From NCBI GenBank assembly GCA_022843165.1, contig JALHOD010000007.1, forward strand, positions 67,101 through 131,100: DNA of 64,000 bases. Direction: 5' to 3'. How positions within the stretch are numbered: position 1 is the stretch's first letter; every line of letters starts with the position of its first letter. The translations under genes were made by a program, and so were the position numbers. The stretch is from Pseudorhodoplanes sp. GTDB lineage: Bacteria; Pseudomonadota; Alphaproteobacteria; Rhizobiales; Xanthobacteraceae. Below the pieces are notes generated by a model that saw only the letters and a list, made by a program, of their open reading frames with translations, did no database searches and was not told the DNA's origin. Positions 2,733 to 44,418 of the stretch are shown here, in pieces.

Positions 2733-3167
2733 TCACGGAAAGGATTTCTGCAACTCGATGGTACGGCCCAGGGCCTGCTGCATCATGTCGAAGCTGTCGG
2801 CAAAAGCCATGTATTCGATCAACCGGTTGTTCCGGTAACGGTGAAAAGCGGCCACCTTGTACCGCATGACCCGGCCGGTCTCCCGCTGCCGCAGCCTGCG
2901 ATCGCAGATCACCGCCGCGCGGTCGCCCTCGACCACCACGACCTCCAGATCGTTGCCGAGAACTTCAACCAGTTCATCAATCTTTTGAATCGCTTTCAGG
3001 ACCTCGGCTTTGCCTTGGATTCTATTGGGAAACGGCAGCGCCTCCGGCGGGCAAAACATGCGCCATTCGATATCGTCGTCGAACAGATCGAAGATGGCTT
3101 CGCGCGCGCCCCCGTCATAGGCGGCATAGGACAGTCGGACCAGCTTGTGAATTTCCTCAGGCGTCAC
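2733..3167 (-). CDS. SnoaL/NTF2-like family protein
   Basis: A 144-residue protein with the layout of the NTF2-like cone fold: an N-terminal helix pair (IHKLVRLSYAAYDGG), a WRMFCPPE segment after the first strand, and C-terminal strands ending VAAFHRYRNNRLIEYMAF. Such proteins are small ligand pockets or isomerase-like enzymes. Substrate cannot be deduced. Translation starts at GTG, five bases after a strong GGGAGG site; an overlapping ATG just upstream is out of frame. It sits between gatA and gatB on the same strand but shows no functional tie to them. Confidence 0.8.
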   Translation of the reverse strand: MTPEEIHKLVRLSYAAYDGGAREAIFDLFDDDIEWRMFCPPEALPFPNRIQGKAEVLKAIQKIDELVEVLGNDLEVVVVEGDRAAVICDRRLRQRETGRVMRYKVAAFHRYRNNRLIEYMAFADSFDMMQQALGRTIELQKSFP

Positions 3168-3290
3168 GCATCCTCCCGTGGCAAAGCGATTCTTTCAGTT
3201 CCGCCAATCTGGCACGGAAGGTGAAATACCCAACATACCGCTATAACGAGCGCAGCTTGAGCGTCACAACCTTGGCGCTGAGCGTTTTGG

Positions 3291-4766
3291 TCACCACCAC
3301 GCCTGGGGCGTGAAACGGCCGGCCGCCTGCTCGATCACTTCCCCAAGCGAGAACAGCGTCTCCTCGTCGAAAGGACGGCCGATCAATTGCAGGCCGAGCG
3401 GCAAGCCTTCGCTGGACAATCCGCCGGGCACCGAGATGCCGGGCAGCCCGGCCATGTTCACCGTCACCGTGAAGACGTCGTTGAGATACATCTCGACCGG
3501 ATCGGCGCCGCCCTTTTCGCCGATGCCGAACGCCGCCGAAGGCGTCGCCGGTGTCAGGATGGCGTTCACCCCCTTGTCAAAGCAATCTTCGAAGTCCTTC
3601 TTGATCAGGGTGCGGACCTTCTGGGCGCGCAGGTAATAGGCGTCGTAATAGCCTGCCGACAAAACATATGTTCCGATCATGATGCGGCGTCGCACTTCCG
3701 CGCCGAAACCGGACGCGCGCGTCCTCTCATACATGTCGGTGATATCGCGGCCATTCTCGCGCAACCCGTAACGCACGCCGTCATAGCGGGCGAGATTGGA
3801 CGAGGCCTCCGCCGGCGCGACGATGTAATAGGCCGGCAGCGCATATCTGGTATGGGGGAGCGAGACCTCGACGATGTCCGCGCCGGCTTTTTTCAGCCAG
3901 TCCGCGCCCTGCGCCCACAGGGTCTCGATCTCGGCGGCCATGCCGCCGACCCGGTACTCCTTCGGGATGCCGATCTTCATGCCCTTGACCGATTTGCCGA
4001 TCGCCGCCTCGTAATCGGGGACCGGCTGATCGATCGAGGTCGTGTCCTTGGCGTCATGTCCCGCCATCGACCGCAACAGGATGGCGGCATCGCGCACCGA
4101 CCGGGCAAAGGGACCGGCCTGATCCAGGGATGATGCGAACGCGATCGTGCCCCAGCGCGAGCAGCGTCCATAGGTCGGCTTGACACCGACAATGCCGGCG
4201 AAAGCCGCGGGCTGACGGATCGAGCCGCCGGTATCGGTTCCGGTGGCGCCGAGGCAGATGCCGGCGGCAACCGCCGCCGCCGATCCGCCGGACGACCCGC
4301 CCGGCACCAGCGGCGTATTCGCTCCTTGCCGGCGCCAGGGAGAAGTCACGGGTCCGAAGAACGAGGTCTCGTTCGAGGACCCCATGGCGAATTCGTCGTT
4401 ATTGGTTTTTCCAAGCAGGACCGCGCCGTCGCGCCAGAGCTGCGCGGTCACGGTCGATTCATAAGCCGGGACGAATGTGTCGAGGATGTGCGAGCACGCC
4501 GTGGTCCGCACATCCTTGGTGCAGAACATGTCCTTGATCGCCACCGGAATGCCTTCCAGCGGGCCGGCCTTGCCGGCGGCGATGCGCCTGTCCGATTCGC
4601 ACGCCATGGCGCGCGCGACGTCAGGGGTTTCCAGCACATAGGCGTTGAGTACGCGCGCCTTCTCCATCGCGGCGAGATGGGCTTCTGCCAGTTCGGATGC
4701 GCTGAAGCGTTTCGTCGTCAGGCCATCGCGCGCGTCGGCGATGGTGAGCGAAGTCAGTTCGGTCAT
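3291..4766 (-). CDS. gatA: Asp-tRNA(Asn)/Glu-tRNA(Gln) amidotransferase subunit A
   Basis: GatA (491 residues) is the amidase subunit that hydrolyses glutamine and channels ammonia to GatB. The amidase-signature catalytic triad is complete: Lys78 in PVAIKDMF, cis-Ser158 in PGGSSGGSA and nucleophile Ser182 in [12 protein letters not shown]. The length is normal. The ATG overlaps the stop of the small gene 4763-4993 by four bases (ATGA), which implies translational coupling. Together with gatC and gatB it indicates the indirect route to Gln-tRNA and/or Asn-tRNA, typical of alphaproteobacteria. Confidence 0.98.
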
Positions 4767-4993
4767 GAGGCAGGACTATCGCACGCGAAGGAATTGTTGG
4801 CGGTTTTCTTTGTGACCGGCCCGAGCGTCCTGGTTCCGTCCGCCTCCACGACAACCTCGACTTCACCGGGTAACGGCAAATCCATCGCGCGCAGATCGTC
4901 CTCGCTCACGCCCTCCGGCATTTTTCCTTCGGCGATCTGCTTGAGCAGTTCGAACCGATAGAACATTTCAGCTTCTTCGCAGGCGAGGCACAT
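4763..4993 (-). CDS. small conserved-looking protein between gatC and gatA
   Basis: A 76-residue acidic protein ([17 protein letters not shown]) with a CxxC pair near its start and a Pro/Gly-rich centre. No family is recognised. It is a real gene by context: its ATG shares bases with the gatC stop (TAATG at 4995-4991) and its stop overlaps the gatA ATG (ATGA), so the three genes are translated as one coupled unit. The CxxC could bind metal or be redox-active. A role in amidotransferase assembly is only a guess from position. Confidence 0.75.
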
Positions 4994-5280
4994 TACTCGA
5001 CCACCTTGGGCACGAGAAAGAAATGGTCTTCGGTCGCAGGCGCGTTGCCGACGATGATGTCTGGAATTCCCCCGTCGGTCACCGCGTCGGCGCGCTTCTT
5101 CATGACCATCGGCGTGACCGAGGTCATCGGCTCGACGCCCTCGACCTCGACTTCTGAAAGCTGCTCGACGAAGCTCAGGATGGCGTTGATCTCCGTCCGC
5201 ATTTTCTCGATCTCGCTGTCCTCGACGGCGATCCGCGCCAGATGCGCGATGCGGCGGACAGTCGCGATGTCGACGGACAT
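4993..5280 (-). CDS. gatC: Asp-tRNA(Asn)/Glu-tRNA(Gln) amidotransferase subunit C
   Basis: GatC (95 residues) is the small scaffold that wraps around GatA and stabilises its contact with GatB. The family opening is clear ([17 protein letters not shown], then the helix [14 protein letters not shown] and the segment VEPMTSV). The length is normal. It is first in the gatC-small ORF-gatA unit and overlaps the following gene by one base. Confidence 0.97.
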
Positions 5281-5357
5281 GAACGAGCTCCAGGGACGGG
5301 CATGAAGACCGGGTCGCTATAGCAGACGGCCGTTTTGAACAGCAACCGGAGAACCGA

Positions 5358-5585
5358 TCACCGGTGCTTGCGCTTTTTCGGAGAAGCGGAGACGTCCGGT
5401 TGGGCCGGCGCGATCATGTAGCGTTCGGGCGGCGTGGCGACGGCGCGCGCCGAGCCGGGCGTTCCGCCCGGGCGAGTGAACTCGACGCGGACGGGCGCGA
5501 TCTGGGCGGATCCGGCCCCTTGGGCATGGGCGGATGCCGCGATCGAGGTGGCCGTAATGGCGGCCGCGAATTGCAAAAGCCGCAT
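5358..5585 (-). CDS. small secreted protein of unknown function
   Basis: A 75-residue protein with a plausible Sec signal peptide (MRLLQFAAAITATSIAASA, cleavage after AHA) followed by a short Pro/Arg-rich mature part ending in a basic KKRKHR tail. GGAGG lies six bases before the ATG. It faces away from the PAS regulator at 5781, with a shared AT-rich promoter region of about 195 bp between them. No family is recognised. The mature chain is only about 53 residues and looks unstructured. Confidence 0.65.
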   Translation of the reverse strand: MRLLQFAAAITATSIAASAHAQGAGSAQIAPVRVEFTRPGGTPGSARAVATPPERYMIAPAQPDVSASPKKRKHR

Positions 5586-5780
5586 GATTGACCTCCACTC
5601 TCCGATCCCTAGAAGACATATTGCATCCTAATTTGATCATTCGGGAGATTCAGGCACTTGCACAAAGCATAAATTTTCTTGTTCCAGCGCCATGTACGGA
5701 GTTGCTGCCGCAATTTTTGAGGGTTACTCTAATATTTGACTAGAATTTTGGGTGAGCTTCTCCACCGTACGGAGGCTCTG

Positions 5781-6806
5781 ATGCTAGTCTTGTTTGAAGG
5801 CCCAACCGGCCCCAGCGAAACGCTCCGCTTTGTCGAAGAAAAGGGCGGCGCCGGGATCTGGAGCTGGGATCTGAAGACCCAGAAGATGCAATGGTCGCGG
5901 GGGCTTTTCGCCCTGCTGGGGCTTGAGCCGGATTCCGCCGAACCCTCCTACGCTCTCCTGCGGTCCATGACACACCCCGAGGACCGACGCCCGGAGGGCG
6001 AGCTTGAGCGCATCGTGAGCGACGCCATGCCGCTCGATCGCGAATTCCGGATCATCCAGGCCAACCGCAGGGTCCGCTGGCTCTCGTCACGGGGCGAAGT
6101 TCTGCTCGACCAGGCCGGCAAGCCGTCCCGCGTCATCGGAGTCATGTTCGACGTAACACGCCGCCGCGAAGCATCGCTCGCCAAACAGGCCAGCGATGCG
6201 CGCTATCGCGCGTTGGTGGAAGCCATTGCCACCGTGGTCTGGAGCAGCGACCCGGAGGGCAAGGTCACCGACATGCCGGAATGGCGGAAGCTCACCGGCC
6301 AGACCGTCGAACAGGTGGCGGGATGGGGCTGGCTCGAAGCGGTTCACCCCGACGACAAGGCCATGGCGATTCAGGCGTGGCATCGTTCCGTGGAGAAGGG
6401 CGAGATCTACGACGCCGAGTTCCGGATCCGCAGACGGGCCGGCGAATATCGCTGGTACAATTGCCGCGGCGCACCAGTGCGAAATTCCGACGGCTCGATC
6501 CGGGAATGGGTCGGGATCTGCATCGACATCCACGAACGCAAGGTCTGGGCGCCGACGAGCGCCGCCGCGTCCGCCGCCCTCACGGGAGCGCAGATCCGCG
6601 CGGCGCGCGGCATACTGAACTGGTCGGTGCGCGATCTGGCCGAATCCGCAAAGGTGTCCGCCTCCACCATCCGGCGGCTCGAGGAACTCCACGGGTCGCC
6701 GTCCGGCACGGAGCCCAGCCTTGAGCCCATCCGCGAAGTCCTGGAGCGGTCGGGCGTGGAGTTCCTGTTCGCTCCGACCGGCAAACCCGGTGCGCGGCCG
6801 CGATGA
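5781..6806 (+). CDS. PAS-PAS-XRE helix-turn-helix regulator
   Basis: A 341-residue protein with two PAS domains of the PAS_3 fold (about residues 14-128 and 139-255; HPEDRR and HPDDKA motifs, each closing with a GVMFDVT or GICIDIHER strand) and a C-terminal XRE-type helix-turn-helix (about 268-330, LTGAQIRAARGILNWSV). No histidine kinase, GGDEF or EAL output is present, so it is probably a soluble one-component sensor that binds DNA directly. The first PAS part lacks a membrane segment. The start is set by GGAGG six bases upstream; an in-frame TTG at 5736 has no such site. The ligand is unknown. It is transcribed away from the small secreted protein gene. Confidence 0.85.
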   Translation: MLVLFEGPTGPSETLRFVEEKGGAGIWSWDLKTQKMQWSRGLFALLGLEPDSAEPSYALLRSMTHPEDRRPEGELERIVSDAMPLDREFRIIQANRRVRWLSSRGEVLLDQAGKPSRVIGVMFDVTRRREASLAKQASDARYRALVEAIATVVWSSDPEGKVTDMPEWRKLTGQTVEQVAGWGWLEAVHPDDKAMAIQAWHRSVEKGEIYDAEFRIRRRAGEYRWYNCRGAPVRNSDGSIREWVGICIDIHERKVWAPTSAAASAALTGAQIRAARGILNWSVRDLAESAKVSASTIRRLEELHGSPSGTEPSLEPIREVLERSGVEFLFAPTGKPGARPR

Positions 6807-7001
6807 AATGGGTTTCTGGAAGCCCAGGCGCTTACGAAAATACCGCCGCCAATTTTGGGGCCGGCGATTTCATGCCCGGCCATCCCGCGCGAAATTTCTC
6901 CGTGCCGGTCCGTCTGCCGCGGGCTGCGAACCAAATTGCCTTAACAGGACTGTAAGTGAATTCTTCTAGTTGTTCTCATGAGCATTTGATGAGCAGAGGG
7001 C

Positions 7002-7367
7002 ATGACCCTGGTTGGACAACAGCAAGCGCGCGAGCACGTACCGCACATTGAAGCTCTTCGCGCAGATACCGTCGAACTGCTCAATGATCTCACCGCGCAA
7101 ATCGAAAACTTTCGCCGCATTTTCGACGGCGCGTTCGAACACGCTCCGACCGCACCGGCGCGTGAACAATCCACGGATGTCGTCTTCGTCGACGATCTCG
7201 CAAAATGCATGGATTGTTCATGGGCGCGTCTTGAGGCTGCGAGCGGACGGCCCACCGCGGATATCGTCGCGCAATGTTCCCGCTTTCTGGAAACCTCGCT
7301 GCAGATCCTCCAGCAGGTCCAGCAATTACAGGCCGGCAAAACCAGTCCGCCGGACACAGACGGCTGA
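7002..7367 (+). CDS. hypothetical helical protein
   Basis: A 121-residue soluble protein predicted to be mostly alpha-helical, with heptad-like stretches (IEALRADTVELLNDLTAQI and LETSLQILQQVQQLQ) and two cysteines in CMDCSW. No family is recognised. The ATG follows GAGCAGAGGG. It ends three bases before the convergent ModA-like gene. Coiled-coil association is plausible, but function is unknown. Confidence 0.6.
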   Translation: MTLVGQQQAREHVPHIEALRADTVELLNDLTAQIENFRRIFDGAFEHAPTAPAREQSTDVVFVDDLAKCMDCSWARLEAASGRPTADIVAQCSRFLETSLQILQQVQQLQAGKTSPPDTDG

Positions 7368-7369
7368 CT

Positions 7370-8140
7370 TCAGGACGCCGGACGTTCCATCCCCTTCTTG
7401 CTCAGCAGCGCCGCTGCGTCCGGTCCCGACAACAATTCAAGCAACGCCTTTGCAGCAGCCGCATCTTTTGCCGTGGTGCTGATGCCGCCGGTATAGGTGG
7501 TGTAATTCTGGATTTCACCGGGCAGCGGCCCGACCAGCGTCACACCCTTCACCGGAACGATCTCGCTGATCTGATGGATTCCGAGTTCGGCATCGCCGCT
7601 GACAACAAGGTCGGCGACATAGCCGCCCTTCTTCAGCCTTGCCTTCGGATTGATCGCGTCCGCCAGCCCCAATCTTTCGAACAGCTTGGCGAGATAGATC
7701 CCGCTCGATCCCCCGCTGGCCGGATCGATATAGCCGACAGTCTTCGCGGACTGCAGCGCCGCCTTGAACGCATCGAGGGAAGAAATATCGGGGCGAGGTG
7801 CGCCTTCCTTCACCATGACGCCGATGCCGACACGCGCCAGATTTTTCTGGCTGCCGTCGGCGATCTTGCCGCTTTTTGTCAGCTGGCCGATGGCGCCCGG
7901 CGTGATGACCGCGACATCGAATGGCTCGCCGCTCTCGATGCGCTTCAGCAAGGCGCCGGCCGTGTCATTGTCGACGGTGACTTTGTGACCCAGGCGTTCG
8001 AAAGCCGGAACCATCTCGATCACGACCGGCTTCATCGCGCCGGTGGTCAGCACCTTGAGCTCGGCCGCGCCCGAGTTTGCACCCCCGCCCCAGAAGACTG
8101 CCACGATCGTCGCCGCAAGAGCCGCGCCTGTTGCCCGCAT
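7370..8140 (-). CDS. ModA-like extracellular substrate-binding protein
   Basis: About 256 residues: a signal peptide (ALAATIVAVFW, cleaved near GAAE) and then a type II periplasmic-binding fold of the molybdate-binding/SBP_bac_11 family. Visible are LKVLTTGAM after the signal, an NDTAGALLKRI segment, FDVAVITPG and GYIDPASGGSSGIYLAKLF. The family binds oxyanions or small organic anions for ABC uptake. No permease or ATPase lies beside it, so the ligand is unassigned. Two ATGs are six bases apart; the downstream one has AAGGGA at proper spacing and was chosen over 8146. Confidence 0.8.
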   Translation of the reverse strand: MRATGAALAATIVAVFWGGGANSGAAELKVLTTGAMKPVVIEMVPAFERLGHKVTVDNDTAGALLKRIESGEPFDVAVITPGAIGQLTKSGKIADGSQKNLARVGIGVMVKEGAPRPDISSLDAFKAALQSAKTVGYIDPASGGSSGIYLAKLFERLGLADAINPKARLKKGGYVADLVVSGDAELGIHQISEIVPVKGVTLVGPLPGEIQNYTTYTGGISTTAKDAAAAKALLELLSGPDAAALLSKKGMERPAS

Positions 8141-41726: not shown

Positions 41727-42113
41727 CTAGATCGCCGATAGCCGGTAGGCCGAGCCGTAACGTCCGAAATCGTGGCTGGTGACTCCGCGCCGCGCCGAGC
41801 CCTGATATTGCGCCGGCGGCGCGACCACCGTCACCTTCACGATGGCGGTCTCGTCCGGCTTCACCAGACCGGCATGGACGGCGGCGACGGTCAGCGCGGA
41901 ATCGCCAGTATAGACATCCGTGCCCCAGAGCGAGCCCTCGACCGCTCCCCGCACCCGGAAATAATAGGTCGCGCCGACCGGATCGCACAGGTCGAGCATG
42001 GTGGGGGGCGCATCGGCCGCCAGAAAACCCTGGTCGAGCAATTTGCGAAGCTGGGCTTTCGACAAATCCCCGCGCCGATCGAAATAGGCAACGAGTTCCT
42101 GCATGACCTTCAT
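41727..42113 (-). CDS. LCCL-domain protein
   Basis: A 128-residue protein with no signal peptide. After about 55 helical residues comes an LCCL domain: VEGSLWGTDVYTGDSALTVA, then AVHAGLVKPDETAIVKV and GSARRGVTSHDFGRYGSAYRL. LCCL domains occur mostly in eukaryotic extracellular proteins and scattered bacterial ones and are thought to bind lipids or other ligands. The paired cysteines of secreted LCCL domains are absent, which fits a cytoplasmic location. Its ATG overlaps the VWA gene stop (ATGA), so it is the third member of a coupled MoxR-VWA-LCCL operon. Confidence 0.82.
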   Translation of the reverse strand: MKVMQELVAYFDRRGDLSKAQLRKLLDQGFLAADAPPTMLDLCDPVGATYYFRVRGAVEGSLWGTDVYTGDSALTVAAVHAGLVKPDETAIVKVTVVAPPAQYQGSARRGVTSHDFGRYGSAYRLSAI

Positions 42114-43387
42114 GACCGGTCTCCCTGCTGCATGGTCACGACCCGCCCATAAGGCGGGTCAAAGCTGGCACTCCCCTGCGCCGTCAAAACCCAGAGCACG
42201 GCATAAGGCATCGCCAGCGGCGGATAGCCGACATCGCCGTCGGTGATGACCAGACAGGCGGTGACGCGGGGATCGTCGGCCAGCCGGAGCATCGCCGGCG
42301 TGAGATCGCTGCCGCCATAACCGTTGACCTCGTAGTCGGCGAGCTCGCCGGCGGACAATACGACATCGGATGTGACGGCGGTGTCGCACTGGATCACCCG
42401 GATCTCGTCGACGGCCACGGCGTCGCAGAAATCGGCCATGGCGCCGAGCACGCGCGGAATGTCGTCCGTCATCGAACCGGAGGTGTCGAGGACGACATTC
42501 AGCATCCATGATTGCCGCTTGCGGCCCGGCAGCACGATGTCGGCGCGGTCCAGCGCCCGCCGCGACGGCCGCAGGAATGTGCGTTCGCCCGGCGCGACCG
42601 ATTCCATCCAGGTCTGCAACGCCATCTCCCACGGCGTGCGGTAAAGCCCGCGCAAGGCGGTGACGACCTGCCGCTGCGCGGCATCGGTCTCGCCGCCGCG
42701 CCCCTTCATCACGCCCATCGCTTTCGCCAAAGCCAGACTTCTGACCGCCAGGTCCTGCATGGCTTTCACGCGCGCGGCCTGTTCGCCGGCCTCTTCAGGA
42801 AACAGCTCGCGCTCGGTGCGCTCATCGAGCACGTCGCCCGCCTCCCCGTCCGGCGAATGGCCCGCGCCGGGCGCAGACGTGAATACCCGCCGCAATGTCA
42901 CCGGCTGGCCTTCGAACACCCGCGATTGCGAGGGCATGCGGTCGGCGTTGCGGCGCATCTCCAGCACGATCCGTTCGGCGGATTTCGCGCGCGCGCCCGG
43001 CATGTCGAGCCCGCCGGCCGGGATCGCGGTGAAGCCCAGTTCCACGCGCAGGATGTCGTTGATGATGTAGTCGTGCGCGTAGTTGAATTCGAGATGATGG
43101 CTGCCGCGCGCGCGCTCATGCGTGCGCAGCGCCAGATGCAGCAATTCGTGCGCCAGTACGAAGATGAGTTCGTTCTGCTTCAGGCGCGCAACGAAGCCGG
43201 GATTGACCACCAGCCGTCCCGACGCGAACACGCCCATGGTCGGCACACGGGTTTCGATATTCACTCGCACCGCCGCGGCGAGGCCTGCCAGATGCGGCAG
43301 CGGCGCCGACACCATGCGCAGGCCCTGCGCGATGCGAGCCAGCGTCTCGCGGTCCGACGGAACGGCACTCACAACAACGGCGCTCAC
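42110..43387 (-). CDS. HExxH metallopeptidase-like / VWA (MIDAS) protein
   Basis: A 425-residue protein of the DUF2201 type. The N-terminal half has a zincin-like helix HELLHLALRTHERARG (His80, Glu81, His84) and NYAHDYIINDIL, which could supply the third ligand. The C-terminal half is a von Willebrand A-like domain with MIDAS loop DTSGSMTDD (Asp301, Ser303, Ser305). The start is GTG at 43387, overlapping the MoxR stop (GTGA). Such proteins pair with MoxR AAA+ ATPases; here the ATPase is directly upstream. The peptidase substrate is unknown. Confidence 0.88.
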   Translation of the reverse strand: MSAVVVSAVPSDRETLARIAQGLRMVSAPLPHLAGLAAAVRVNIETRVPTMGVFASGRLVVNPGFVARLKQNELIFVLAHELLHLALRTHERARGSHHLEFNYAHDYIINDILRVELGFTAIPAGGLDMPGARAKSAERIVLEMRRNADRMPSQSRVFEGQPVTLRRVFTSAPGAGHSPDGEAGDVLDERTERELFPEEAGEQAARVKAMQDLAVRSLALAKAMGVMKGRGGETDAAQRQVVTALRGLYRTPWEMALQTWMESVAPGERTFLRPSRRALDRADIVLPGRKRQSWMLNVVLDTSGSMTDDIPRVLGAMADFCDAVAVDEIRVIQCDTAVTSDVVLSAGELADYEVNGYGGSDLTPAMLRLADDPRVTACLVITDGDVGYPPLAMPYAVLWVLTAQGSASFDPPYGRVVTMQQGDRS

Positions 43388-44418
43388 AGCGCGGTGACCT
43401 TCTTCAGGAGGTCGAACATGGCGCTGTCGGCGCCGAGCGCGCCCCATGGCGCCACCAGATCGGTCAAGACCGTGAGTTGCTGTTCCGGCGACAGGCTGCG
43501 CAGGAAGCGGTTCACCGCGCGCGGCTTGAGATGCGACAATTTCCCGTCCCGCACATGCTGGCGGATGCAATGCAGGATGAACCAGCGCGCGGCGTCGGTC
43601 GTTGGCAACAGATCGGGACGCGCGACATAATCGGCGAGCGGGCGAAGACTCGCGATCTGCTCTTCGGCCAGCGCGCAGAACACTGCCGCGTCCTCCGCCG
43701 AGACCCGGCCGAAGGCGAGCGCGCGGCGCGTTTCACGGTTGAGGATGCCGGCACCCTCGGCCAGATCGAGCGCCCGCGACAGCAGAGACCAGGCGCGCGG
43801 CGTGGAGAACGGCACGGGCTCCGACGGCACCGGCCGCATCAGGGCGTCCGGCATGTGCGAGATGAAATTGCGGATGTCGGTGCGAATGCCGTTTTTCGCT
43901 GCCCAGGCCTGCCATTCGCCGGCATCGACGCGCAAATGCAGGATCGTTACGCGGTTGACCAGCGCCGAACTCATGGCGCGCACCAGCGCGCGATCCTGCA
44001 TGCGGTTGCCGGCGGCCACCACCCAGGTGCCGGCGGGCAAGGCGTGCTCGCCGAGACGGCGTTCCAGCAGCAGCGAATAGAACGCCTTCTGCACGTCCGG
44101 CGCGCAGGCCGGCAATTCGTCGAGAAACAGGCAGAACGGCTCCGGCTTTTCCGGCAGCAGCAGGCGCGGCGGGCAGAACACCGAACGCTCGCCGACGATG
44201 CGCGGAATGCCGCTGACGTCCTCCGGCGCGATCTGGGTGCCCAGCAGCGAGCGGCAGGGCAAGCCCGCTTCCGCCGCCGCCTGACAGACCATCTCGGATT
44301 TGCCGACGCCGGGTGGCGACAGGAACAGAAAACTCTGCTCATGCGCCATGCTCTGAATCAGCTTGCGCGCCTGATCCAGCGTGACGGTCTCTTCAAAATG
44401 TGAGCGGGGGGTGTCCAT
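43384..44418 (-). CDS. MoxR-type AAA+ ATPase
   Basis: A 344-residue AAA_5 ATPase with Walker A SPPGVGKSEM (about 34-43), Walker B FCLFLDELPACAP, sensor 1 TWVVAAGNRMQD and an arginine-finger region near SSALVNRVT. MoxR ATPases act as chaperones that load metal or remodel partners with VWA domains. GGAGA sits seven bases before the chosen ATG. It is first in the three-gene coupled unit with the HExxH-VWA and LCCL genes. Confidence 0.9.
   Translation of the reverse strand: MDTPRSHFEETVTLDQARKLIQSMAHEQSFLFLSPPGVGKSEMVCQAAAEAGLPCRSLLGTQIAPEDVSGIPRIVGERSVFCPPRLLLPEKPEPFCLFLDELPACAPDVQKAFYSLLLERRLGEHALPAGTWVVAAGNRMQDRALVRAMSSALVNRVTILHLRVDAGEWQAWAAKNGIRTDIRNFISHMPDALMRPVPSEPVPFSTPRAWSLLSRALDLAEGAGILNRETRRALAFGRVSAEDAAVFCALAEEQIASLRPLADYVARPDLLPTTDAARWFILHCIRQHVRDGKLSHLKPRAVNRFLRSLSPEQQLTVLTDLVAPWGALGADSAMFDLLKKVTAL

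Follow-up and report, generated by a model that had tools for sequence, protein, structure and literature searches.

What does a small LCCL-domain protein do beside a MoxR ATPase and a von Willebrand factor A (vWA) protein? This question is raised by a three-gene operon of Pseudorhodoplanes sp. (Alphaproteobacteria, Xanthobacteraceae), found in a stretch of 64,000 nucleotides (nt) of contig JALHOD010000007.1 (assembly GCA_022843165.1), which we will henceforth refer to as the window. Its predicted products are P0001 (a MoxR-type AAA+ ATPase), P0002 (a vWA protein with an N-terminal zincin-like domain) and P0003 (the third, LCCL-containing protein). A preliminary description of the locus had proposed that P0003 is a dedicated partner or substrate-recognition unit of a MoxR-vWA peptidase. 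By comparing the operon with its relatives, we found that the three genes form a conserved unit and that the third protein appears to consist of two parts, namely a short N-terminal module and a C-terminal part that differs between loci.

Conservation of the three-gene unit

We found the zincin-vWA gene in 19 of 198 genomes of the window's family (at E ≤ 1e-20), which represented 6 of 47 genera. In all 19 carriers the third protein is matched from no more than 12 nt beyond the vWA match, on one and the same contig and strand (the G872 match is divided between two frames). A full-length third protein was found in none of the 179 family genomes without the vWA gene; three of these (G770, G805 and G830) had matches to part of the LCCL domain only. 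Both searches used a genome draw of the same size, and the genome handles shown in both lists agree. Within this family the operon is patchy but, where present, complete. The preliminary description had staked its case on the LCCL gene being kept beside moxR and vWA in relatives; this held in every family carrier, and the claim of a conserved partner is right and stronger than it was put. As a side observation, one of the partial matches (G805:C8:39784-39918; 45 residues, 64% identical to P0003 residues 84-128) looks like the remnant of a lost operon.

At the level of the order (150 genomes), four genomes had a match to the vWA protein, i.e., the window's own genome, G029 (45% identity over nearly the full length) and two with distant matches. 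The P0003 type occurred in the own genome only, and four other genomes had LCCL matches in open reading frames (ORFs) of 262-835 amino acids (aa). G029 carries moxR and vWA genes without an adjoining LCCL gene, apparently on the same contig as L072, a locus of the wider set below. A class-wide search with P0002 (385 genomes) gave matches in seven genomes besides the own one, all of them distant or partial.

A contig scan with a two-row vWA alignment yielded a wider set of 63 loci, mostly from Hyphomicrobiales and beta-proteobacterial metagenome-assembled genomes (MAGs), with further MAGs labelled Acidobacteria or Planctomycetes (MAG labels, e.g., Bordetella parapertussis, are unreliable); the isolates comprised six records named Bosea, one Boseaceae, Pseudochelatococcus contaminans and Rhizobiales 2SD. 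Of the 63 loci, 61 have a moxR match upstream of vWA, and in L044 and L066 the contig begins at or just before the vWA gene. The LCCL gene lay directly downstream of vWA in 49 of the 63, that is, in 49 of the 60 assessable loci (three at contig ends, L035, L074 and L084, were left out of this count; L065 is cut by a contig end). Six loci (L068, L070, L076, L078, L081 and L083) had the N-terminal module with another C-terminal part, either down- or upstream, and five (L032, L051, L072, L077 and L080) had no third gene adjacent. In L080, a long frame after the vWA gene (5869-7377) ends TIR-like by eye and had no Pfam match.

Pairwise protein distances were strongly correlated across 40 rows (after removal of L031 and of every row that one of the three alignments lacked). 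Specifically, r was 0.898 for MoxR and vWA, 0.837 for vWA and the third protein, 0.858 for MoxR and the third protein, 0.711 for vWA and the module, and 0.789 for vWA and the LCCL domain, and none of 2000 permutations reached any of the five values. Given that organism relatedness feeds into these correlations, they show joint inheritance and not contact.

The overlaps GTGA and ATGA that had been reported between the genes were both found, with all three genes on the minus strand (Table 1). Among the fetched relatives a spacing of -4 nt was seen in 39 of 57 moxR/vWA pairs and in 33 of 48 vWA/LCCL pairs with usable ends, where starts were chosen by a script favouring the start homologous to the window's and L065 and L070 were excluded from the second count. 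Overlaps of 4 nt point to translational coupling and not to stoichiometry, meaning that of the proposed "stoichiometric co-translation" only the coupling stands.

Motif residues were conserved in both P0001 and P0002 (length filters left 57 vWA rows and 53 MoxR rows, window included). P0001 has Walker A, Walker B and sensor 1 of the AAA+ core and matched Pfam AAA_5 (E = 4.1e-5, 24 bits against a curated cut-off of 22), and its residues G37, G39, K40, S41, L97-E101 and A136-R139 were unchanged in all 53 aligned rows. We take it to be a MoxR protein from family background and from its gene partnership. P0002 has the architecture of DUF2201 metallopeptidase-vWA proteins: DUF2201_N ("putative metallopeptidase"; E = 1.3e-18) with an HExxH motif is followed by DUF2201 ("VWA-like"; E = 1.1e-14) with a metal-ion-dependent adhesion site (MIDAS), both above their curated Pfam cut-offs. 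The preliminary description had named these features and would have taken free variation of the HExxH residues in homologues as a refutation. The P0002 residues H80-E81-x-x-H84 and D301/S303/S305 are indeed present, and they were almost constant: H80 and E81 in 56 of 57 rows, H84 in all 57, with the sole departure at residues 80-81 being L086, an ORF split over two frames there. N102, H105, D106, Y107, N110 and D111 were invariant (57/57), as were D301, S303, S305, T382 and D383, with S360 in 56 and D361 in 52 rows; H90 was kept in 52 rows and is F in L076, L077, L081 and L083. By analogy with gluzincins, the third zinc ligand may be H105 or D106, and P0002 is a probable zinc peptidase. The AlphaFold2 (AF2) model of P0002 (predicted local distance difference test, pLDDT, 83.1; predicted template modelling score, pTM, 0.56) matched the vWA fold (best row: Z 11.8, root-mean-square deviation 3.5, 157 aligned). 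In a comparison with viral protein models, the full-length matches among those listed had template modelling (TM) scores of 0.18-0.36 by query length; the score was 0.71, by its own length, for a phage protein of 153 residues that is annotated as putative metallopeptidase domain (E = 2e-5).

Table 1. Features of the operon (positions within the window).
Feature	Positions	Strand	Details
moxR-type AAA+ ATPase gene (P0001)	44418-43384	-	344 aa; translation and Pfam AAA_5
Zincin-vWA gene (P0002)	43387-42110	-	GTG start, 425 aa; DUF2201_N and DUF2201
Third gene (P0003)	42113-41727	-	128 aa; N-terminal module and LCCL domain
GTGA overlap moxR/vWA	43387-43384	-	4 nt
ATGA overlap vWA/LCCL	42113-42110	-	4 nt
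Putative metallopeptidase domain, residues 22-288 of P0002	42524..43324	-	PF13203
HELLH motif, residues 80-84 of P0002	43136..43150	-	H105-D106 and N110-D111 downstream of motif
vWA domain, residues 297-420 of P0002	42128..42499	-	PF09967; MIDAS D301 S303 S305
N-terminal module, residues 1-37 of P0003	42003..42113	-	profiles A6/A7 match beside moxR
LCCL domain match, residues 59-118 of P0003	41760..41939	-	PF03815

The third protein: a common module and its C-terminal parts

The only Pfam matches of P0003 were LCCL (PF03815; E = 1.7e-12, 47.8 bits against a cut-off of 22.6) and Rxt3. Its AF2 model (pLDDT 89.5, pTM 0.81; block pLDDT of at least 94 in the LCCL part, from residue 51) was matched by Foldseek to Rxt3 of the S. 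pombe SIN3L complex (8i03_I; E = 2.4e-6), to the LCCL domain of cochlin (1jbi; E = 1.5e-5, TM 0.81 by target length) and to two yeast Rpd3L/SIN3 chains (E = 1.8e-3 and 3e-3), the next match having an E-value of only 0.35. The LCCL fold is thus confirmed, at the level of a predicted model, by Pfam and Foldseek together. The nearest solved relative by sequence is likewise the fungal Rxt3 of the SIN3 complex. P0003 has the fold and the stretch WGTDVYT in common with cochlin and Rxt3, and differs from them in being bacterial and in having an N-terminal module ahead of the LCCL domain. Inspection revealed no signal peptide, and the N-terminus was modelled as two helices. That LCCL is mostly a domain of eukaryotic extracellular proteins, as had been suggested, is too strong a statement: in other genomes of the order and family, longer ORFs contain between one and four matches to it, and the Rxt3 relative just named belongs to the SIN3 complex. 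Among the matches listed for a search of titles and abstract beginnings in open-licence PubMed Central (PMC), there was no paper about bacterial LCCL proteins. Two further LCCL occurrences were seen in the family, namely four LCCL-part matches within one 605-aa open frame of an operon-carrying genome (G764:C1:3558951-3560132) and a second full-length third-protein match (56% identity; G878:C138:7930-8313) on a contig other than that of the vWA-adjacent copy.

We then consider the N-terminal module, for which the AF2 model of P0003 predicts helices at residues 2-13 and 19-27. A profile of P0003 residues 1-48 matched ORFs in L076, L068 and L078 (E = 2e-4 to 7e-4), and the modules of L081 and L083, which were recognised by visual inspection of what follows the vWA gene, were added to give alignment A6. 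The A6 profile matched 10 of 12 genomes at E ≤ 7.3e-10, including four outside its training set (those of L070, L072, L077 and L051), and also a divergent 680-aa ORF beside the moxR gene of L076 (E = 2.9e-5). The C-terminal parts joined to the module were of different kinds: HEAT_2 in both module genes of L076 (E = 1.2e-8 and 9.9e-46), FGE-sulfatase in L081 (E = 1e-37) and WD40 in L070 (E = 2.6e-54), while those of L068, L078, L083 and L094 had no Pfam match (L083 is repeat-rich by eye). These non-LCCL proteins adjoin the same MoxR-vWA pair in Planctomycetes and in an Acidobacterium. The LCCL type was also found in MAGs labelled Acidobacteria (L048, L050 and L054) and Gemmataceae (L062), meaning that the C-terminal payload is not simply tied to phylum. 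L065 and L070 were left out of the 49-row LCCL alignment.

A second profile, A7, trained on rows including Planctomycetes, gave seven matches at E ≤ 1e-3 in 163 genomes of the class of the Planctomycete genome G530, one of them the centre of the search and six new (five at E ≤ 2.1e-13 and one at 1.8e-5). In all six new genomes moxR (E < 1e-130) adjoins the module, and in four (L130-L133) the zincin-vWA gene does so too. As controls, module searches gave two matches in 372 Alphaproteobacteria (the own genome and one spurious frame) and a single one, the centre itself, in 154 genomes of the phylum of G537; these searches scored pre-filtered candidates, and weak carriers may escape them. The spurious match, in G262 (E = 2.7e-4), was rejected as a second alphaproteobacterial carrier because, judged by eye, its frame seems non-coding and because the match is an internal one. 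Within the 63 loci the module profile (E ≤ 0.01) matched ORFs of the third type only and no MoxR or vWA frame.

Two possible relatives of the module were considered. Pfam EAD7 weakly matched 4 of 18 module rows (best E = 0.035), and an EAD7 search of ten whole genomes gave nothing above the cut-off and no listed place at module loci. The match of the module profile to 8fje_A ("E8"; E = 4e-7) had no stretch that passed on its own. Taken by their sequences, the third proteins appear to be two-part proteins, in which a module of about 37 residues precedes a payload, a point that goes beyond the preliminary description. The finding that otherwise unrelated third proteins have this module in common supports the proposed role of P0003 as dedicated partner or recognition unit, in which the LCCL domain itself may do the recognising.

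Several observations on the Planctomycete loci stand beside these results. A stretch of some 300 aa, unmatched in Pfam, recurs by eye after the module in L128-L132, L134, L068, L078 and L070, and in L070 it stands ahead of the WD40 part. L068 (5938-7962) and L078 (5741-7801) have two MoxR domains joined in one ORF, with a match to the RNA polymerase alpha C-terminal domain family between them (E = 9.1e-7 and 0.0057, respectively), and L128 and L130-L132 likewise have two MoxR domains or genes.

Published MoxR-vWA systems and relatives in phages and plasmids

In the literature, which we cite here and below from excerpts of the papers, MoxR-vWA ternary systems of four types (VMAP, iSTAND, FtsH and beta-propeller) were defined by Kaur et al. 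2020 (PMC7159879), and iSTAND2 and TERNS3 were added to them in PMC8195603. Like the operon studied here, these conflict systems combine MoxR and vWA proteins with a system-specific third protein and have modular recognition domains. The window has their MoxR and vWA core; by contrast, P0003 and P0002 contain none of the known third components (VMAP, iSTAND, FtsH, or a beta-propeller fused to vWA), and no effector was found C-terminal to the vWA domain, whose match reaches residue 420 of 425, or in linked genes. The vWA protein of the window thus differs from theirs in having an N-terminal zincin and no C-terminal effector. In the main text of PMC7159879 the word "metallopeptidase" appears twice (for a rare effector and for a separate peptide-processing enzyme), and "LCCL" occurs 0 times in the main texts of PMC7159879 and PMC8195603. 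We place the operon with the MoxR-vWA ternary systems, from which it differs by the zincin on its vWA protein and by a third component of which no description was found in the open-licence PMC literature searched.

A second point of comparison is NorQ-NorD, which has, like this operon, an AAA+ ring with a vWA/MIDAS partner, and which differs in serving a dedicated client enzyme without a zincin domain or a separate recognition subunit (PMC9976466). According to Kahle et al. 2023 (PMC9976466), the NorQ ring holds the NorD vWA domain in its pore, and the MIDAS is required for client activation and dispensable for NorQ binding. If that model applies here, a separate recognition subunit would be a natural addition.

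The closest published pair comes from group 2.2 jumbo phages, which encode MoxR and a vWA protein with an N-terminal metallopeptidase domain, proposed to act in virion assembly with peptidolytic processing (PMC7824862). PHROGs families phrog_1297 and phrog_1314 matched P0001 (E = 9.3e-58) and P0002 (E = 1e-51), respectively, over most of their length, which suggests that these families and the proteins of PMC7824862 are one family related to genes 1 and 2 of the operon. The preliminary description had held a cytoplasmic LCCL partner of a MoxR-vWA peptidase to be undescribed to its knowledge: the pair itself is already published (PMC7824862, in the parts available), whereas no description of a MoxR-vWA machine with an LCCL or module third component was found in the open-licence PMC literature.

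Among 50,697 phage records, 311 had a tblastn match to P0002 (the 10 matches listed were 26-30% identical), and MoxR-DUF2201 pairs were found in bacteria, plasmids and phages alike. The module gave no match at E ≤ 1 in four phage and four plasmid stretches (L110-L113 and L116-L119), and a plasmid search with P0003 gave two records with LCCL-part matches inside longer proteins. These relatives have other genes between moxR and vWA: a gene labelled DUF3150 in Synechococcus phage MinM2 (in L118 this label is the record's own), ORFs with no Pfam name at 0.01 in L110 (3962-4888) and L118 (2927-3799), and one with a sub-cut-off Pfam match only in L116 (5333-5857).

Two of these records merit separate mention. 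In Acinetobacter phage Presley (L116) the gene at 5854-7059 matched DUF2201_N (E = 1.6e-39) and DUF2201 (E = 2.5e-21); the record calls it an "HNH endonuclease", as PHROGs does phrog_1314, which is probably a misannotation. In Burkholderia ambifaria plasmid pBMC401 (L110), typed as conjugative, an AAA_5-type gene, an unassigned gene and a P0002-related VWA-like gene (2839-6101) lie directly upstream of type IV secretion genes.

A proposed machine and its alternatives

To explain these findings, we propose that the operon encodes an AAA+/zincin-vWA machine with a swappable recognition subunit docked via its N-terminal module, a reading to which we give roughly an even chance. The products would form one cytoplasmic machine in which the MoxR ring provides ATP-driven remodelling, the vWA/MIDAS domain grips the ring and/or the target, as in NorQ-NorD, and the zincin domain cuts the remodelled target. 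The third protein would be the recognition subunit, docking on the MoxR-vWA pair through its two-helix module and presenting a C-terminal part that can be exchanged. This part is LCCL in most carriers among the proteobacteria and in four MAGs with Acidobacteria or Gemmataceae labels, and a HEAT, WD40, FGE-sulfatase or unassigned part in other Planctomycetes and one Acidobacterium. The reading builds on a three-gene unit, co-occurrence, conserved residues of catalytic type, a common module and differing C-terminal parts, all of which we observed; from the sequences we infer docking on the pair, recognition of a ligand or client, peptide cleavage and a cytoplasmic site.

Several points weigh against this proposal. 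The module is short, and nowhere is the predicted structure less confident (block pLDDT 69-78 over residues 1-30). In three genomes (L051, L072 and L077) it is not linked to the pair on the available contigs, being found elsewhere as a full LCCL type, a contig-end fragment and a 365-aa ORF, respectively (the module contigs of L051 and L077, of 9.3 and 11.3 kb, have no moxR or vWA match), and it was not found in the genomes of L032 and L080 (2 of 60 assessable; best E = 0.63 and 0.16). One of the six new Planctomycete module loci (L128) showed no zincin-vWA gene in the 16 kb covered, and another (L129) stops at a contig end. The vWA profile A3 matched only two of 199 genomes of the Planctomycete phylum of G530 (the centre and a partial relative), meaning that the system is rare there. 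For P0002, conservation of residues of zinc-ligand type is no proof of peptidase activity, and the comparison with PDB folds barely covers the zincin half, since the vWA half fills the match list. Finally, we know of no ligand of a bacterial LCCL domain.

One alternative, which we regard as unlikely, is that the operon is an antiphage conflict system of the MoxR-vWA ternary kind, in which the third protein senses an invader by means of its variable domain and triggers the MoxR-peptidase. The published ternary systems (Kaur et al. 2020, PMC7159879) have the same core logic, FGE-type CLec domains have been discussed and proposed as sensors (Dore et al. 2024, PMC10907252), and the distribution is patchy, as noted for the 19 of 198 genomes and 6 of 47 genera of the family. 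Yet no effector domain was found and PADLOC gave no match for P0001-P0003 (in NCBIfam, two of the three proteins matched only far below the cut-off and the remaining one not at all), and the LCCL domain, with a mean pairwise identity of 0.59 vs. 0.62 for the vWA protein, is conserved to about the same degree and is not fast-evolving. The neighbours in the window are also of housekeeping type: the nearest encode dihydroxy-acid dehydratase (ilvD), a Sel1-repeat protein, an exonuclease/endonuclease-family protein, a methylpurine-DNA glycosylase, a methyltransferase-like protein and release factor 3. Among the 25 largest neighbour clusters viewed (built from stop-to-stop frames of at least 100 aa), none was a flank kept outside related lineages; the two widest (15 and 11 of 64 loci, counting the window) are at scattered distances, and others are lineage-bound.

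Somewhat less probable still is a maturation chaperone like NorQ-NorD or RavA-ViaA, whose third protein recruits one client and whose zincin is metal-holding or a relic. MoxR-vWA pairs of known function are of this type (PMC9976466 and PMC3893208, as excerpted), but the near or full invariance of HExxH, H105-D106 and N110-D111 is unlike a relic, and no client gene in the manner of NorQ-NorD was kept beside the pair among the 25 largest neighbour clusters viewed. We assign a similarly low probability to the third protein being a dedicated substrate, with the module as entry tag and the C-terminal domains as cargo. Such a tag on cargo of various kinds would account for the same data, and the module can begin at the gene's first codon in 18 aligned rows (with start codons picked by us). 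The identified cargoes (LCCL, HEAT, WD40 and FGE-sulfatase) are, on the other hand, mostly binding domains, an argument that is not decisive and is limited in that FGE-sulfatase may be enzymatic and several C-terminal parts have no Pfam match. Barely credible, lastly, is the idea that the LCCL gene is unrelated and is linked to the pair by chance or by inheritance within a lineage: although some loci come from one lineage with common flanks (the six Bosea and one Boseaceae records), this is already contradicted by the co-occurrence in 19 of 19 against 0 of 179 genomes, by window flank genes recurring in just 1 of 63 loci (L025; some loci have short flanks) and by the module recurring on different domains beside moxR.

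Returning to the proposed machine, the third protein may choose what this machine acts on, because the same front end recurs on different domains of recognition type. F-box receptors similarly join a small docking module to an exchangeable WD40, LRR (leucine-rich repeat) or other recognition domain; they have no homology to the third protein and serve a ubiquitin ligase rather than an AAA+/zincin pair. It is possible, though doubtful, that the operon is a bacterial counterpart of such receptor-swapping protein-destruction machines, in which a docking module plugs interchangeable domains into one AAA+/zincin-vWA processor. If so, target choice would evolve by exchange of a single subunit while the motor and peptidase stay fixed. 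To our knowledge, the target choice of MoxR-DUF2201 pairs is mostly unexplained, and a 37-residue module common to unrelated partners would offer a direct handle on it; the LCCL domain, in turn, would gain a testable role inside bacterial cells.

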